In this document: positions 9,456 through 17,256 of the stretch, piece after piece | Layout of the letters: every line of letters starts with the position of its first letter | Numbering within the stretch: position 1 is the first letter of the stretch | Assembly: GCA_028820845.1 (NCBI GenBank) | Contig: JAPPII010000005.1 | Coordinates: forward strand, 1-54,001 | From: Candidatus Poribacteria bacterium | GTDB taxonomy: Bacteria; Poribacteria; WGA-4E; WGA-3G | Direction: 5' to 3' | DNA length: 54,001 nucleotides | Notes under the pieces: generated by a model | The model's database searches: none | Seen by the model: the letters and a program-made list of their open reading frames with translations, nothing else | What the model was told of the DNA's origin: nothing | Program-made: the position numbers and the translations under genes

Positions 9456-12400
9456 GTGAACTCGTCCAAACGCCCAAACCAAGACGCACTCTATCAAGCA
9501 CTCAATATCTATTGCGATGTAATGCGTCCCTTCATTCTTAAAAACCTGAAAACCGTACAAAACCTATCACCAAAAGATCATTTTGAAAACGAATCGGATA
9601 TAGATATTGGCGATTTCCCTTACCTCTTCAGAGAGTATTGGCACGATGTTTTTAAATACCTTTTCGATCCAGATCGGGACATCCGCAGTGCTGTAGGTAT
9701 CATAACCGAAGCACGAAATAAGGTTGCCCATCCCCAAGCAGAAGACCTCACATCGGGATATACCCTCTCCCGACTCCATGAAATTGCCGATATACTTGGA
9801 CAAATCAATGCCCCTGAACAGAAACGGGAAGTTGAAACCATCCGCGACAAGTTGCTAACCAATACAGCACCAACCGTAGAAGCCAAACCGAAACTCCCGC
9901 GTAGAAAAGCAGCAGACCTCACCCCATGGCGCGATGTCATCCGTCCGAACACCGATGTTATTGAAGGTTCTTTCCGAAAATCGGAATTCGCCGCCGATCT
10001 TCAGGAAGTTTTTGAAGGAAAAGCGAAAACCTCGGAATATGGCGAAACCGACATCTTCTTCAATCAAACATACATCACCCCGGGACTCAAGGAATTGTTG
10101 GTTAACACCCTAAAACGACTCGGCGGTAAAGGCAGCAATCCAGTTATCCAACTCAAAACCGGTTTTGGGGGTGGGAAAACCCATAGTCTCATTGCCCTCT
10201 ATCATCTTATTACCGGTATTAATATTCTAAGAGAACTTCCAGCGGACGATCAATACAAGCGACTCCGAGAAGAAATAGAAGACATCTTGGAGGAAGCGGA
10301 TTGGGATGACAACACACCGCTTAACGCCAACGTCTCTGTTCTGGTCGGTACCTACCTCTCTACGACCGACGCAGATGAAACCAAACAGGGGGACCCACTC
10401 AATACGCTCTGGGGTATGATGGCAGAGCAACTCGGTGGACAGGATGCCTATAATATCATTGGTGAAGCCGCACGCATGGGAACTGCCCCCGGCGGAAATC
10501 AGTTGGACAGACTCTTTGAACACGTCGGTCCCTCTGTCATCTTAATAGATGAACTCGTTGCCTATGTCCGTAATGTACAAGGCGTCACACAGGAAAGCAT
10601 CTACACCTTCTTTCAGGCAGTTACAGAGTCTGTAAACAGGTCTAAGAACGTTACACTCGTTGCAACGCTACCAGAAGGACAAATACACGCAGGCGGCGAA
10701 GGTGGGATGACCGCTCTTGATACCCTCGGATCTATCCTCGAAAGGGTTGATGCTGTCTCTATTCCGTTAGAAGTGGATAACGCTAATGAGGTCGTGCGCA
10801 GGCGACTGTTCGGTAACCTAATTGACGAGACAGAACGCGACCAGACCTGTGAAGCGTTCCGAAGGATGTACCAGAACTCCCGCAGCGAATATCCGAGTAA
10901 CGTTAGCGATCAAGACTACCTGAAACGCATGAAAGATTGCTATCCTATCCACCCGGAAATATTCGATCGGCTCTTTCAGGACTGGTCGGCTATCCCTGGA
11001 TTTCAGCGCACCCGCGGTGTCCTTCGAATCATGGCGACTTGCATTTCTCGTCTTTATCAAGAACAAGACCCCTCTCTGCTGATAATGCCTGCGAACCTCA
11101 CCCTTGACGATCCCGCACTTTCCGATGAATTCACCAGACTCTTGGCAAGGTCTGGCGGAAATTGGGACCCCGTCGTCCAAGAGATAGACAGCCACGGTTC
11201 TCGCACCGATCAGATTGATCGAGACTCTCAGAGTTTCATTGAGGTCGGTAGTGCAGCACGGCGTATCGCGCGTACCATATTCCTCGGCAGTGCCACCAGC
11301 CATGCGGTCAAGGGTATATCTCGGCAGCAAATTCATCTCGGTGTTGTTGAACCCGGACAAGGGGTCTCAGTCTACAACGATGCTCTCAGCAGAATGACCG
11401 GCAACCTCTATTTCCTCTATAACCTTGACGAGAGATACTACTTCCACACCCAAGAGAACCTCAATAAAGTCGCTATAGATCGCGCAGCAGAATACTCCGA
11501 AGAAGATATCCACGCTGAAATTGTTTCACGCTTGGAAAGAACTGTTCAAAGCACTTCAAACGTGAGGGTCTGTCCTACATCCGTAAACCTTGTCAAGGAT
11601 TCCCAAACCCTTCAGTACGTCATTCTCCACCCGCAGGCATCCCTACCCAGTCGCGAGAAGGAGACCGATTTAGCACGCGAAGCTGCGCTTAAAATTCTTA
11701 CATATAACACGGACGATGAAAGACCGCGCACCTTCAGGAATACCCTCCTCTTCATCGCATCGCGGCGAGACGACATCCGAGAACTCAGAAATTTCGTCAA
11801 AAACTACCTTGCATGGCACTCTATCATGAACGGAGATGCCCTACACAGGGCACTCACTCATCTTGAAGGCGCGCGGTTAGACCAGACAACGGAGAACCTT
11901 GAAGCCGCTGAGGATGCCGTAACAACAGCACTCTTCAAGGCATATCGATGGGGACTTGCTCCTTCGCAAGCAGATCCGCGGAAGGATGACTATGATTTTT
12001 CTGTTGCTGACACAAAGCCGACAGATGGCAGAATTGTCCAACGCCTCCGTGAAAAGTTTACTGACGAGGATGCAATCGTCACAAAAATTGCACCTGACAT
12101 CTTCGCTGCACGGTTACAACAATACATCTGGAGTAGCGATGCTTATCAAGAGCATGTTGGCGTAGATACTCTCTGGGAACTCATGACACAAAACGTCTAC
12201 ATGCCCCGCCTGAGAGATCGGAACGTCTTGGCGACGTGTCTTAGAGACGGAATCGCAGCAGGAACGTTTGGCTATGCCAGCGCGTATCAAGATGGCGATT
12301 ATCGGAACTTCCGTTTTGAAGAACAGATCGGGGGACTCCGAATCGCTGAGGAGAGTACTGCCGTTCTCATAAATCCTGAAATGGCGAAGCTGCTCAAAGA

Positions 12401-12728
12401 AGCACAAGAAGAAAAACAGGTGCCGCCAACACCCCCAGAACCCGATCAAAAAGCAACAGGCGGTTCGACAAGCATTGTAGTCGATCCACCCCAACCAAAG
12501 GGACCTACGCATATTGTTGTCACTAAGGCACTGCAGTTAGAATTACCTTTCATGGACGATATAGAAACCCTGCAAGACGAAATTGCCCGTACCCTCCAAA
12601 CAGACGGCGGGACAGTAAAAGTGGAAATCACCGTTACTGCCGACAAATCAGACGGCTTTTCGGAAAACACCACCCGCGCCGTTAAGCAAAACAGCGAACA
12701 CCTCAACGCCGACTTCAAAAGCGACTAA
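9456..12728 (+). CDS. DUF499-type P-loop ATPase with N-terminal Swt1-like HEPN domain
   Basis: A 1090-residue protein of the DUF499 ATPase group, a family repeatedly found beside DUF1156 methylases in predicted anti-phage loci. Residues 1-130 look like a Swt1-type HEPN domain with the RNase signature R-x4-H intact (RNKVAH, R87 and H92). The ATPase has Walker A GFGGGKTH at 236-243 and Walker B VILIDELVAYV at 361-371. The C-terminal ~100 residues carry a proline-rich linker (near PPTPPEPDQK) and a basic/polar tail. GTG start with GGAGAGG upstream; a consensus promoter precedes it. Its DUF1156 partner begins 1.3 kb downstream, after an Rpn-like gene. Family call firm; HEPN call from motif; biological role inferred. 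Confidence 0.85.
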   Translation: MNSSKRPNQDALYQALNIYCDVMRPFILKNLKTVQNLSPKDHFENESDIDIGDFPYLFREYWHDVFKYLFDPDRDIRSAVGIITEARNKVAHPQAEDLTSGYTLSRLHEIADILGQINAPEQKREVETIRDKLLTNTAPTVEAKPKLPRRKAADLTPWRDVIRPNTDVIEGSFRKSEFAADLQEVFEGKAKTSEYGETDIFFNQTYITPGLKELLVNTLKRLGGKGSNPVIQLKTGFGGGKTHSLIALYHLITGINILRELPADDQYKRLREEIEDILEEADWDDNTPLNANVSVLVGTYLSTTDADETKQGDPLNTLWGMMAEQLGGQDAYNIIGEAARMGTAPGGNQLDRLFEHVGPSVILIDELVAYVRNVQGVTQESIYTFFQAVTESVNRSKNVTLVATLPEGQIHAGGEGGMTALDTLGSILERVDAVSIPLEVDNANEVVRRRLFGNLIDETERDQTCEAFRRMYQNSRSEYPSNVSDQDYLKRMKDCYPIHPEIFDRLFQDWSAIPGFQRTRGVLRIMATCISRLYQEQDPSLLIMPANLTLDDPALSDEFTRLLARSGGNWDPVVQEIDSHGSRTDQIDRDSQSFIEVGSAARRIARTIFLGSATSHAVKGISRQQIHLGVVEPGQGVSVYNDALSRMTGNLYFLYNLDERYYFHTQENLNKVAIDRAAEYSEEDIHAEIVSRLERTVQSTSNVRVCPTSVNLVKDSQTLQYVILHPQASLPSREKETDLAREAALKILTYNTDDERPRTFRNTLLFIASRRDDIRELRNFVKNYLAWHSIMNGDALHRALTHLEGARLDQTTENLEAAEDAVTTALFKAYRWGLAPSQADPRKDDYDFSVADTKPTDGRIVQRLREKFTDEDAIVTKIAPDIFAARLQQYIWSSDAYQEHVGVDTLWELMTQNVYMPRLRDRNVLATCLRDGIAAGTFGYASAYQDGDYRNFRFEEQIGGLRIAEESTAVLINPEMAKLLKEAQEEKQVPPTPPEPDQKATGGSTSIVVDPPQPKGPTHIVVTKALQLELPFMDDIETLQDEIARTLQTDGGTVKVEITVTADKSDGFSENTTRAVKQNSEHLNADFKSD

Positions 12729-12746
12729 AAACCTGCAGTCTTTGTA

Positions 12747-12800
12747 GCACAAACTTTTAGTTTGTGCATGCTCTCTGTAGCATAGACTGTTAGTCTGTGC
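12747..12800. repeat. Two tandem GCACAAACT-type palindromes
   Basis: GCACAAACT/AGTTTGTGC (12747-12767) and the variant GCATAGACT/AGTCTGTGC (12780-12800) are two adjacent short hairpins, each with a TT/GTT-type loop. The same family occurs at 19305-19325, 52420-52440 and, interrupted, near 41791-41843. They sit between the DUF499 stop and the next promoter. Confidence 0.8.
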
Positions 12801-12813
12801 CTTCCAAATCCGC

Positions 12814-12843
12814 TTGACATTTTCCACCCCTTTACCGTATAAT
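12814..12843 (+). promoter_or_regulatory. Consensus promoter placing transcription start on the ATG
   Basis: TTGACA at 12814-12819, an 18-nt spacer, then a perfect TATAAT at 12838-12843. The ATG begins at 12850, seven bases after the -10 element, so the expected start nucleotide is the A of the start codon or very near it. There is no room for a Shine-Dalgarno sequence; the mRNA should be leaderless. Confidence 0.85.
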
Positions 12844-12849
12844 ACAACC

Positions 12850-13713
12850 ATGGCACAAGATTATGACAACATGGGGAAAAGTCTATGGACAGACCACGCT
12901 TTAGACCTTTCGAGATTTGTACTTGGCGAACAAAACGTCGAAGTCCTTGAAGACCTGGACACCGAACAACAGACCGTTATCGCTCGGCAGACCGACATCA
13001 CAAAACGTGTCCGCGTCAACAATCAAGAGGCGATCTTGCACGTCGAGTTACAACTCCGCGATAGCACACGCGAACCGATGTGGGCACGGAACGCCCAATA
13101 TCAAGGATATCTCGTCGGCAAATACCAGATACCTGTCTACTCCAATGTTATCTATTTCCACCCAAGAGCTGGCAGGAATGATCCGGGCGGTTACACCTAC
13201 AAGTGGCACGGCTACGAACACACCAATCGTTATAAAGTGATACGGCTGATTGAGATAGAGGGCGAGCCGATTTTGGAGATGCAGGCACCCGGACTCCTGC
13301 CGTTTACGCCACTCATGAAACCACCTGCGCGGATGGACATTGAACGTTGGGTGCAAGAATGTGTGGATGTAACACAAGCGGTTCCCGTGGATCAGCAAGC
13401 GCAGGCGGATTTACTTCACGGAATCTACCTCTTTGGTGGGGTAGTGTATGACTCAGAGTTACTTGACCGACTCATACCGGAGGAACTTATGCGAGAATCT
13501 AAAACTTACCAATTACAAATGGAAAGAGCTGCCAGAGAAACGACCCTCAAGAATACCTTGACGGTGCTGAACAGAAAATTTTCGGCAGACGCAGTAAATG
13601 ACTTAACACCAGAGATGCAAAACATAGATAATTTGCAGAGATTGGAACAGTTGCTAATCGCTGCAATTGATGCTCGAAACCTTGAAACGTTTGTACAAAC
13701 GCTGCACGAATAG
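12850..13713 (+). CDS. Rpn/YhgA-like PD-(D/E)XK nuclease family protein
   Basis: A 287-residue protein resembling Rpn-type recombination-promoting nucleases and related DUF4351 proteins, which spread as selfish-like genes. Seen: an N-terminal region with ARQTDI (D49) followed by LHVELQ (E66, Q68), a candidate D...E-x-Q variant of the nuclease core, and a C-terminal helical segment (LNRKFSADAVNDLTPEMQ ... LETFVQTLHE) like the DUF4351 tail. The ATG at 12850 is chosen because the promoter points straight at it. The gene interrupts the DUF499-DUF1156 pair and is followed by a damaged second copy, suggesting a mobile or recombining cassette. Transposition has not been shown for the family in general. 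Confidence 0.75.
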   Translation: MAQDYDNMGKSLWTDHALDLSRFVLGEQNVEVLEDLDTEQQTVIARQTDITKRVRVNNQEAILHVELQLRDSTREPMWARNAQYQGYLVGKYQIPVYSNVIYFHPRAGRNDPGGYTYKWHGYEHTNRYKVIRLIEIEGEPILEMQAPGLLPFTPLMKPPARMDIERWVQECVDVTQAVPVDQQAQADLLHGIYLFGGVVYDSELLDRLIPEELMRESKTYQLQMERAARETTLKNTLTVLNRKFSADAVNDLTPEMQNIDNLQRLEQLLIAAIDARNLETFVQTLHE

Positions 13714-14001
13714 GTGCCACGAGAAAAATAAAGGTCTATGGCCAGACCACACCTCCGACTTGTACCAGAGGAACTTATGCGAGAATCTAAATTTTACCAA
13801 CGCCAACAGGAAAGAATTGCCAGAGAAACAACTATAGAAAATACCCTTGCACTGCTTTCTGATCAATTCCAAGCGGAAACAGTAAGTGCTTTAACGCCCG
13901 CACTTCGCAACGTAAACGATCTACAGAAACTTAAGCGGTTACTCCGCGCAGCTGCGAGAGTGCAAAACATTGAAGCCTTCGCACAAATGCTAAACGAATA
14001 A
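13714..14001 (+). pseudogene. Internally deleted second copy of the Rpn-like gene
   Basis: A remnant made of both ends of a gene like 12850-13713. Near 13731-13770 the DNA matches the first gene's GLW-DH-DL start (AAAGTCTATGGACAGACCA versus AAAGGTCTATGGCCAGACC), then jumps, with a frame change, to the last ~80 codons (EELMRESK ... AFAQMLNE), about 60 percent identical to the upstream copy by eye. An ORF of 87 codons can start at the ATG at 13738 in the new frame, so a short C-terminal domain protein might still be made. About 600 bp of the middle, with the catalytic residues, is missing. It lies 40 nt before the methylase. Confidence 0.7.
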
Positions 14002-14041
14002 AAGCATAGGGTTTAAATGCTTGAAACCAGAGAGATGACAC

Positions 14042-16831
14042 GTGCCCAATTACCGAAAAAAACTCATTGAAGTCAACATCCCCCTCCAAGCCATTAACAT
14101 AGAATCCGCAAAAGACGCATCACTCACACACGGACATCCGTCTACACTCCACCGCTATTGGGCACGTCGACCTCTCGCTGCATGCCGCGCAGTTATTTTC
14201 GCCAGTATGGTAGACGACCCCTCCGAATGCAAAGACGAGTTCCCAACCGAATCTGAACAGAACGCCGAACGCAACCGCCTCCACGGCATCATTAAACGAC
14301 TCGTGGTATGGAAAACTTGTAATGATGAAAACCTCCTTGCAGAGGCGCGTTATGAAATAGCGTTCTCCGTCGCCCGCAATAATGGGGAAAACTTAACCAG
14401 TTTTCGTCAGCAATTTAAGAACGATCCGACAGCAGTCCTACAATACCTCCGCGACCACTGTCCCGCCGTCTACGATCCATTTTGTGGTGGAGGCTCCATT
14501 CCATTGGAAGCGCAACGTTTAGGGTTACGCGCCCGCGCCTCCGATCTAAATCCACTCCCTGTCCTGCTCAACAAAGCGATGATTGAACTGCCCCCGCAGT
14601 TCCACAACCAGAAACCCGTCAATCCCGATGCCGATCCGCTGGGAATGTTCACTGGTACCGGAAGAAAAAGAACGCGTGTCCCTTGGAAAGGCACCGCAGG
14701 CTTGGCAGATGATATCCGCTACTACGGTGCATGGATGCGTGAGGAGGCGTACAAGCGAATCGGACATCTCTATCCGAAAGCAGAACTTCCGGACGGAACC
14801 GCTGCAACCGTCGTTGCATGGTTGTGGGCGCGCACGGTGCCGTGTATCAATCCTGCGTGTGGCCTCCAGATGCCTTTAATGAAAACCTTCCAATTATCAA
14901 AAAAGAAGGGCAACGAGCATTGGGTTAAACCTGTTGTTGATAGAAAATCAAATACTATTTCCTGGGTTGTGCAAACCAATGATGAAGGAGTACCAGGACC
15001 TACCGTCCATCGGACAGGTGCACACTGTTGCGGATGTGGAACTTCTGTTAAATTGCCTTACGTCCGAGAACAAGGGCAAGCAGGTAACATAGGTGGGATA
15101 ATGACAGCGATAGTCGCCGAGGGGACCCGCAAGAAATTGTTCTTGTCACCTACTGAAAAACACCTTCAAACAGCTGGCTTCCCGACCCCTAAGTGGCGAC
15201 CAAAGGAAGAAATAATAAATACACCCAAAGTTAGTGCGCTTGTCTATAGTATGACCCATTGGCATGAACTCTTTACTGCTCGCCAACTTACCGCCCTAAC
15301 TACTTTCAGCGATCTATTATCGGAAGTTCACAAACAGATAACCGAGGATGGCGCGACGGAAGAATACGCCTGCGCTGTTCGCACCTACCTGTCCCTTGCT
15401 ATTGGTAGGACTATTGATGCCAATTCCAGTTTCACGCGTTGGCATAACTCAGGTGAGAAAATTGAAGCAGTTTTCTCACGGCAGGCTATTCCAATGCTCT
15501 GGGACTTTCCTGAAGCAAATCCCTTTTCCACGTCAACACAAAATTGGATTTCACATGTGGAGTGGATTGCAGAGGTCATTGAGAATCTGCCAACATCAAC
15601 GAACGGAGGCGAGATTTATCAAGCGGATGCGACTACGACAACGCACGCTGCTGATAATCCACTTATTGTTACAGATCCTCCGTATTATGATAACATACAA
15701 TACGCCGAACTTTCCGATTTTTTCTACGTCTGGTTGAGGCCTCTGCTTCGCGAGATATATCCGGAGCTTTTCGCCGCTATAATGACTCCCAGAGATGAAG
15801 AGATAGTCGCCGCGCCGCGGTTTGAAAATCCAGCACAACACTTTGAAAAATTGCTCGGCAAGGCGTTGGTCCGGATGCGGCAGCACTGTTCTGACAAATT
15901 CCCCTCTTCCATTTTTTACGCTTACAAACAGCAAGAAAATGAACAGGATGGTAAAGCCTCTACCGGTTGGGAAACGATGCTCATGGCAATCATCAACGTA
16001 GGTTTTCAGGTTGCTGCTACTTGGCCCTTGCGCACTGAACGAACAACAGGCCTTAAGGGTGATAAAAACGCACTCACCTCCTCCATTGTGTTGGTGTGTC
16101 ATCCTCGTTCCGAGACCGCGCCTACCGTAACCCGCCCCGAATTTCTACAAGCACTGAAAAAAGAGATGCCCCGGGCCCTTGAAAGACTCACGCGCGTCGC
16201 AAATATTAGACCCGTCGACTTGGCGCAAGCCGCCATCGGGCCGGGGATGGAGATTTATTCCCGCTATAGTAAAGTCGTGCGGATTAGCGGCGAAGTTGTG
16301 CCGATACGCGAGGTTCTCACACACATCAACAACGAAATCACCGCATACCATGAAAAAGAGACCGGAGAATTGGATCCGGAAACTCAATTCTGTTTGACAT
16401 GGCTCCAGCAGCACGGTTACACGGAAGGCAATTTCGGGGATGCGGATGTCCTTTCAAAGGCGCGGGATGTAGATACCGCCACTATGCATAACAAAGTGCT
16501 GCTTAGAGATCGTGGCAAGGTTCGGCTACTGAGACCTGAAGAATACGCTGATCGTGAAAACAGCGAGGATATGACAGCCTGGGAAGGATGTCTACGGATG
16601 GTGTGGCATCTCTCCAGTGAAGAAAGGAGCGGCGGGGTTTCTGGATGTACCGCTGTCGCCCGCGCCATGCGCGATTATGAATCCGCAAAACGTTTGGCAC
16701 GCGTCCTATATGCCTACTATGATGCCCGCGGCGATGCGGAGAGTGCAGCACGCTACAACAACCTCGTAACCCAGTGGCAGTATATTTCCCAATCAATGGG
16801 GTCACCAGAGCAGAGAGAGTTGGATTTGTAA
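14042..16831 (+). CDS. DUF1156 N6-adenine DNA methylase with zinc-finger-like cysteines
   Basis: A 929-residue SAM-dependent DNA methylase of the DUF1156 family. Seen: the N-terminal family signature (NIESAKDASLTHGHPSTLH, then RYWARRPLAACRA), the SAM-binding motif DPFCGGGS at 145-152 with SDLNPL following, and the amino-methylase motif DPPYYDNIQ at 545-553. Two cysteine groups, C268/C273 and C329-C332, flank an inserted segment and may bind zinc. GTG start with AGAGAG upstream. Families like this lie next to DUF499 ATPases in predicted defence clusters. The target sequence is unknown. The next gene, a GIY-YIG nuclease, starts 47 nt downstream. Confidence 0.9.
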   Translation: MPNYRKKLIEVNIPLQAINIESAKDASLTHGHPSTLHRYWARRPLAACRAVIFASMVDDPSECKDEFPTESEQNAERNRLHGIIKRLVVWKTCNDENLLAEARYEIAFSVARNNGENLTSFRQQFKNDPTAVLQYLRDHCPAVYDPFCGGGSIPLEAQRLGLRARASDLNPLPVLLNKAMIELPPQFHNQKPVNPDADPLGMFTGTGRKRTRVPWKGTAGLADDIRYYGAWMREEAYKRIGHLYPKAELPDGTAATVVAWLWARTVPCINPACGLQMPLMKTFQLSKKKGNEHWVKPVVDRKSNTISWVVQTNDEGVPGPTVHRTGAHCCGCGTSVKLPYVREQGQAGNIGGIMTAIVAEGTRKKLFLSPTEKHLQTAGFPTPKWRPKEEIINTPKVSALVYSMTHWHELFTARQLTALTTFSDLLSEVHKQITEDGATEEYACAVRTYLSLAIGRTIDANSSFTRWHNSGEKIEAVFSRQAIPMLWDFPEANPFSTSTQNWISHVEWIAEVIENLPTSTNGGEIYQADATTTTHAADNPLIVTDPPYYDNIQYAELSDFFYVWLRPLLREIYPELFAAIMTPRDEEIVAAPRFENPAQHFEKLLGKALVRMRQHCSDKFPSSIFYAYKQQENEQDGKASTGWETMLMAIINVGFQVAATWPLRTERTTGLKGDKNALTSSIVLVCHPRSETAPTVTRPEFLQALKKEMPRALERLTRVANIRPVDLAQAAIGPGMEIYSRYSKVVRISGEVVPIREVLTHINNEITAYHEKETGELDPETQFCLTWLQQHGYTEGNFGDADVLSKARDVDTATMHNKVLLRDRGKVRLLRPEEYADRENSEDMTAWEGCLRMVWHLSSEERSGGVSGCTAVARAMRDYESAKRLARVLYAYYDARGDAESAARYNNLVTQWQYISQSMGSPEQRELDL

Positions 16832-16849
16832 TCCGCATAATCCGTCTAA

Positions 16850-16865
16850 TCCGCGATTCAGACAA
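16850..16865 (+). repeat. Short dispersed repeat TCCGCGATTCAGACAA
   Basis: Between the methylase and GIY-YIG genes lies a run of near-identical short units (AATCCGCATAATCCG..., then TCCGCGATTCAGACAA). Relatives occur at 17285-17297, 17757-17790 and 19361-19418. The 19361 copy carries a 30-bp insertion exactly within GATTCAG, so this intact copy is the empty-site reference. Confidence 0.7.
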
Positions 16866-16878
16866 TGGGAAGTACCCG

Positions 16879-17256
16879 ATGCGTGACACAGTTACCCCCT
16901 ACGTCCTACAGTATCAACTCAAACGTAACCTCCGTCCCTTCACACGCGAGGAGATTTTACAGTTGCCCACCAGACGCAGCGGCGTATATGCGTTGTGGCG
17001 AAAAACCGGTACCGAAGGTCGAAACGAGTGTCTCTACGTCGGGGAATCCACAACTTGTGTCCGAAGACGGCTATTACAGCACGCTTCAAACGCACAGAAT
17101 GATGAACTCCATTCACAACTTCGGATGTTTAGACCCATCATCCAATTCTCAGTAGAATTCACAGAGGATGCCGAGGAAACCGTCTTATTAGAAACCCAAC
17201 TCATCCGCGAGTGGAAACCAAAAACCAATCTGAAAATGAATCCCAATAAATCTTAA
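16879..17256 (+). CDS. Small GIY-YIG nuclease domain protein
   Basis: A 125-residue stand-alone GIY-YIG domain. Seen: GVY at 35-37 and LYVG at 52-55 (the two halves of the name motif), catalytic-region arginines R62-R64 with H68, the conserved metal-binding glutamate in LLETQLI (E105), and N117 in the NLK segment. No DNA-binding domain is fused. The ATG at 16879 is favoured over the longer ORF because family similarity starts after it and the upstream part is repeat DNA. It follows the DUF1156 methylase by 47 nt on the same strand, so it may supply the cleavage function of the defence locus; this is inference from context. Confidence 0.85.
   Translation: MRDTVTPYVLQYQLKRNLRPFTREEILQLPTRRSGVYALWRKTGTEGRNECLYVGESTTCVRRRLLQHASNAQNDELHSQLRMFRPIIQFSVEFTEDAEETVLLETQLIREWKPKTNLKMNPNKS

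Follow-up and report, generated by a model that had tools for sequence, protein, structure and literature searches.

A helicase-less HmaC-HmaB locus with a GIY-YIG nuclease in Candidatus Poribacteria as a candidate version of the Hma / Type-1 BR systems

Whether a HEPN-DUF499 ATPase, a DUF1156 methylase and a GIY-YIG nuclease encoded side by side form a defence system of their own, or a version of one already described, is the question raised by positions 9456–17256 of a 54,001-nucleotide stretch (hereafter the window) of contig JAPPII010000005.1 from Candidatus Poribacteria bacterium. A first-pass annotation had taken this locus for a possible new defence system. All three named genes were recovered by profile matches on the + strand, in the order HmaC-(cargo)-HmaB-GIY and with ~6.5 kb of coding sequence, but the locus is not wholly new, as HEPN-DUF499 and DUF1156 form the core of the Hma / Type-1 BREX-related (BR) systems already described (PMC8565338; PMC12839542; PMC3710099). 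Judged by its sequence, the locus is a helicase-less GIY-YIG version of these systems and part of a coherent lineage in three phyla. Our preferred reading, which we consider reasonably probable, is a restriction-like system that has a minimal GIY-YIG nuclease in place of the SNF2 helicase-nuclease HmaA. It rests on the identity of HmaC and HmaB, intact motifs, fixed linkage, the lack of HmaA, a separate clade, purifying selection and a hypervariable recognition region.

The ATPase gene (9456–12728, + strand, 1090 aa) matched the PADLOC HmaC profile at 745 bits over positions 3–934 of 941 and Pfam DUF499 at 102 bits, consistent with an ORC/Cdc6-like AAA+ ATPase, and carries the Walker A motif GFGGGKT and the Walker B motif VILIDE. 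Fused to the N-terminus of DUF499 is a Swt1-like HEPN domain whose R-x4-H motif is intact, as had been noted (RNKVAH, R87/H92). The window protein scored 25.2 bits against HEPN_Swt1, slightly under the cut-off of 27.5; this family was matched at E<=0.001 by 10 of 14 aligned HmaC proteins (best 1e-38), a set that takes in two canonical plasmid proteins and throughout which R87, H92 and the residues of both Walker motifs are unchanged. HmaB (14042–16831, + strand), a DUF1156 protein with an alpha-type N6-adenine methyltransferase, matched its PADLOC profile nearly full length at 916 bits and Pfam DUF1156 at 90 bits, with motifs DPFCGGG and DPPY. The pairing of DUF499 with DUF1156 had thus been rightly recognized, but the two proteins had not been named as the known HmaC and HmaB, which the PADLOC profiles give. 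Among genus members, the outer two thirds of HmaB are mostly 80–97% identical and aa 301–540 about 50–70%; this hypervariable stretch (aa ~301–540) is expected to be the target-recognition region. In phages, HmaB had no close match; distant partial methylases from Sulfolobus viruses were all that we found.

The GIY-YIG gene follows the methylase, as first described (16879–17256, + strand, 125 aa), and its product matched Pfam GIY-YIG at 32 bits, over the cut-off. The active-site set is intact (G35-V-Y37, Y53-V-G55, R64, H68, E105 and N117), with G35, Y37, Y53, G55, H68, E105 and N117 invariant and R64 nearly so in a 14-sequence alignment. An AlphaFold2 (AF2) model built from this alignment (predicted local distance difference test, pLDDT, 85) had the UvrC N-terminal domain 1yd6 as its best Foldseek match, and shows the nuclease fold alone, with no added DNA-recognition domain. 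An earlier start at GTG 16774 was rejected given that the upstream residues are not conserved among 30 homologues, whose conserved start is ATG 16879.

This small nuclease proved hard to find apart from HmaB. A survey of 85 Poribacteria genomes, counted at E<1e-30, yielded 30 GIY homologues, 28 of which adjoin HmaB; of the other two, one (G051:C460) lies at a contig end and one (G016:C30, L093) stands alone, the latter being the only unlinked full-length homologue, with its catalytic arginine lost (R64C). A wide scan of 84,980 species' genomes, made with a single peptide pattern that more distant relatives could escape, returned 28 true relatives, with HmaB directly upstream in 27 and the remaining one at a contig end. 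Apart from a 3-kb contig labelled Gammaproteobacteria, probably a binning error, these came from Poribacteria, Chloroflexota and Latescibacterota. When 400 Chloroflexota and 64 Latescibacterota genomes were searched with profiles, further loci of the same composition came to light, and the one weak unlinked match (G121) turned out to be a different GIY protein. In the PLSDB plasmids, no GIY homologue was found except one distant GIY protein, and plasmid-borne spread is not supported. As a partner of HmaB/HmaC the GIY-YIG gene is fixed, with linkage far above chance, and its near-constant place beside them in three phyla bears out the proposal that it belongs to the system. Only HmaC, HmaB, GIY and a variable Rpn-like gene recur across 29 loci; no other hidden conserved genes were found in the locus, and the other genes shared within the window's genus are the conserved chromosomal flanks of one fixed site. 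In one decayed locus (L102, G067:C17, 7588–8992), an Rpn gene is followed by the first ~30 HmaB codons, which abut the last part of the GIY-YIG gene; a deletion probably left this remnant.

HmaA is absent from the window locus, which accordingly lacks the in-locus SNF2 helicase by which Hma / Type-1 BR is recognized. DUF3780 and an HKD/PLD-helicase, which would indicate Type-2 BR, were found neither in the locus nor among its immediate neighbours; the absence of both helicase and DUF3780 had been correctly observed in the first-pass annotation. Nor did tblastn find HmaA in the GIY loci of the three phyla. In the window's own genome (G000, 95.5% complete), HmaA gave no match at E<=1e-40, only partial hits to superfamily 2 (SF2) helicases. 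The same genome retains 67 aa of a canonical HmaA helicase as a relic (L085, G000:C108:61172-61372), which suggests the trace of a lost second Hma system. With nothing beyond these partial hits and the relic, an HmaA encoded elsewhere in the genome was rejected as a trans helper. Because HmaA goes unmatched at E<=1e-40 in eight GIY-locus genomes (G000, G030, G039, G050, G064, G073, G078 and G079; seven of them at least 90% complete), the GIY locus seems able to do without HmaA in trans. That the system is self-contained, as had been proposed, is something that we infer from these genomes. HmaA does occur in Poribacteria, but alongside another HmaB clade and a HEPN-less HmaC.

The HmaB tree agrees with this separation. 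Among 70 proteins (quick search, with Shimodaira–Hasegawa-like approximate likelihood ratio test, SH-aLRT, supports only), all 29 GIY-linked HmaB fell into one group of 40 (SH-aLRT 99) without any HmaA-linked member, while HmaA-linked HmaB occupied the other main group (SH-aLRT 98) and an outlying branch. The remaining 11 of the GIY group were solitary copies in full-operon genomes, the contig-end L056 and the GIY-less locus L055. Ratios of non-synonymous to synonymous divergence (dN/dS) against genus and family members were 0.11–0.13 for HmaC, 0.09–0.10 for HmaB and 0.05–0.06 for GIY, and against the same-species locus L065, with few changes to count, 0.12, 0.18 and 0.19, respectively; to go by these ratios, all three genes are under purifying selection.

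In the reading that we prefer, HmaB would use its variable target-recognition region to recognise a DNA sequence and would methylate adenine in host DNA, doubling as the specificity subunit. The AAA+ ATPase HmaC, related to ORC/Cdc6 and BrxC, would assemble with HmaB on unmodified DNA and spend ATP to license the effector, and the GIY-YIG protein, itself devoid of a recognition domain, would then cut the unmodified DNA. The HEPN RNase of HmaC may serve as a backup, a last-resort abortive arm that cuts RNA. Complex formation, cutting, the target sequence or methylation motif, and phage defence by the GIY locus are all parts that we infer. Several points weigh against this reading. We know of no AAA+ motor of the HmaC class that drives a GIY-YIG nuclease; another role, such as nicking or processing, may fall to the GIY protein, and an unrelated helicase could be supplied in trans. 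In addition, the distribution is narrow, with three phyla and largely sponge-derived metagenome-assembled genomes, and, because the locus occupies one conserved chromosomal place in the window's genus, linkage there is in part plain common descent.

The main rival is abortive infection with the HEPN RNase of HmaC as the main effector, in which HmaB/HmaC would only sense unmodified DNA and the GIY protein would be accessory, creating the trigger by nicking or processing DNA. A HEPN motif found in 26 of 27 GIY-locus HmaC ATPases under the relaxed pattern R[NDHG]xxxH, together with HEPN-less HmaC in HmaA-bearing relatives of the same phylum, makes this possible, but we hold it to be doubtful: GIY is the most conserved of the three genes, suggesting an essential catalytic role, and HEPN-HmaC also accompanies HmaA on plasmids, so that HEPN is no general substitute for the helicase. 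That the nearest fold and sequence relatives of the GIY protein are the N-terminal domains of UvrC and Cho raises another alternative, namely a UvrC/Cho-like repair nuclease hitch-hiking with an epigenetic HmaC/HmaB module and having no defence role. We regard this as improbable, since the gene is almost never apart from HmaB in three phyla, the protein is without all other UvrC domains, and a hypervariable HmaB recognition region is typical of conflict systems. A further alternative is that the Rpn-like nuclease encoded between HmaC and HmaB is the true replacement of the helicase-nuclease, with GIY secondary, considering that a full-length Rpn open reading frame (ORF) with an invariant D..ExQ pattern occupies this position in most loci of the family. 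This explanation is disfavoured and very unlikely: the otherwise intact loci L047 and L083 have no Rpn, L070, L072, L076 and L080 have fragments, Rpn is missing between HmaC and HmaB outside the family, PIN, protease, DUF433 or AAA genes take its place elsewhere, and Rpn has been swapped within one species.

The swap concerns a variable cassette between HmaC and HmaB (12739–14025, a region to which no strand applies). In nucleotide comparison with the same-species genome (L065), this segment is largely different while its flanks are 88–100% identical; the proteins share 98% (HmaC), 96% (HmaB), 98% (GIY) and 72% (Rpn) identity, and synonymous divergence (dS) is 0.99 for Rpn against 0.07–0.10 for HmaC/HmaB. 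On these comparisons, the Rpn cassette is to be read as exchanged between two same-species genomes with near-identical flanks. Two genes in it had been overlooked in an inventory otherwise correct for the three named genes. The Rpn-like gene (12850–13713, + strand, 287 aa), a multi-copy family in the window's genome, encodes a probable PD-(D/E)XK nuclease with D49 and E66-x-Q68 invariant in alignment. Its identity is only probable because it rests on this D..ExQ pattern, on a paralogue that reaches TIGR01784 at 23 bits, under the cut-off of 52, and on weak structural matches: the window protein was unmatched by PF04754/TIGR01784, and Foldseek on its AF2 model (pLDDT 88) gave nothing significant, with several of the weak matches being to restriction-type nucleases. 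An 87-aa ORF (13738–14001, + strand) repeats the Rpn C-terminal domain alone; it is RpnS-like and 55–56% identical to the Rpn C-terminus.

Elsewhere, the gap between HmaC and HmaB holds Rpn fragments, nothing, a PIN gene, a DDE transposase, a ClpP-like SDH protease, a DUF433 protein, or an AAA ATPase with a DUF1828 gene (varied cargo in L046, L047, L072, L074, L133, L178, L179 and L180), and plasmid Hma loci likewise have extra genes between HmaB and HmaC. Because its contents vary across loci, including plasmid Hma, the gap is, as far as gene content tells, a cargo spot and Rpn is cargo rather than core; Rpn as a core component was ruled out by this variability. In L077, GIY is followed by another Rpn copy and then by an HmaB start fragment (1960–2070), an arrangement that suggests tandem duplication or recombination of an Rpn-HmaB unit.

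Solitary HmaB genes were also observed. One Poribacteria genome (G029) has four among housekeeping genes (L079, L081, L082 and L084), which keep DPPY and vary mainly in the recognition region, and a Caldilineaceae genome (G086) has about a dozen (L152–L159 and L162–L164), also with DPPY kept, three of which belong to the GIY clade, one of these truncated. Most of the solitary genes in both genomes are without an adjoining HmaC. Because some genomes hold a full operon plus several solitary DPPY-bearing HmaB that differ mainly in the recognition region, we tentatively raise, as a speculation of low probability, a modular restriction machine without a helicase, whose single HmaC-GIY effector would be programmed by exchangeable HmaB specificity/methylase subunits. 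Stray HsdS genes can re-programme Type I systems in a similar manner.

Composition gave no sign of horizontal origin, with 45–51% G+C in the locus and 49–53% around it, and a structured RNA search of the window found one tRNA and nothing else. The gap between HmaC and Rpn (12749–12815) contains two short hairpin repeats, gcacaaac-tttta-gtttgtgc and gcatagac-tgtta-gtctgtgc, which resemble repetitive extragenic palindromic (REP) or terminator elements.

The combination of HEPN-DUF499, methylase and SNF2 helicase was remarked in 2013 (PMC3710099), given the name Hma in 2021, with HmaA helicase, HmaB methylase and HmaC ATPase, as a candidate system (Payne et al. 2021, PMC8565338), and reclassified in 2026 as Type-1 BR, a DUF499-centred group related to BREX, whose tripartite core includes the SNF2 helicase, 79% with a fused restriction endonuclease (PMC12839542). 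The same study reports HEPN on the DUF499 N-terminus in a subset (1370 of 2446 taxa), cites confirmation of phage defence by HmaA, the component missing in the GIY locus, and gives PD-(D/E)XK, HEPN, HNH and TOPRIM as alternative nucleases, with no mention of GIY-YIG in its text. In the open-access literature searched, the sole paper naming both GIY-YIG and DUF499 concerns EVE domains and does not link them. While the ATPase-methylase pair is already known, the helicase-less GIY-YIG composition is, as far as could be searched in that literature, undescribed, in line with the little-described composition originally suggested. A stable three-phylum lineage lacks the helicase-nuclease regarded as core to Hma / BREX-related systems, and a very small nuclease apparently takes its place, which singles out the ATPase-methylase pair as the recognition core. 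In this compact three-gene system one can examine the role of the DUF499 ATPases, which are poorly understood yet central to BREX-like immunity; family-based tools requiring HmaA would probably overlook the system.

Compared with known systems, the Rpn cargo resembles Rpn toxin/antitoxin genes in its PD-(D/E)XK-like protein, separate C-terminal-domain ORF, for which the RpnS antitoxin is a precedent, and fast allelic change, but it is too diverged for the Pfam/NCBIfam models and is cargo within an Hma locus (PMC10327210). The GIY-YIG Type II enzymes R.Eco29kI, R.Cfr42I and R.DraR1 likewise pair a GIY-YIG nuclease with a methylase, yet they recognise DNA themselves and need no ATPase (PMC10855626), whereas the 125-aa window protein is nearest to the UvrC N-domain and has the nuclease fold only. 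Type-1 BR shares the HEPN-fused DUF499 ATPase and the DUF1156 N6-methyltransferase but has the SNF2 helicase in its core (PMC12839542), in contrast to the window locus, which has GIY-YIG and no helicase. Finally, HmaB and HmaC fit the PADLOC profiles of Hma near end to end; Hma has the order A-B-C with HmaA (PMC8565338), and annotated plasmid comparators have the usual order helicase, DUF1156, HEPN-DUF499, whereas the window locus reads C-(cargo)-B-GIY, with no HmaA, an added GIY-YIG nuclease and an HmaB of a separate clade.

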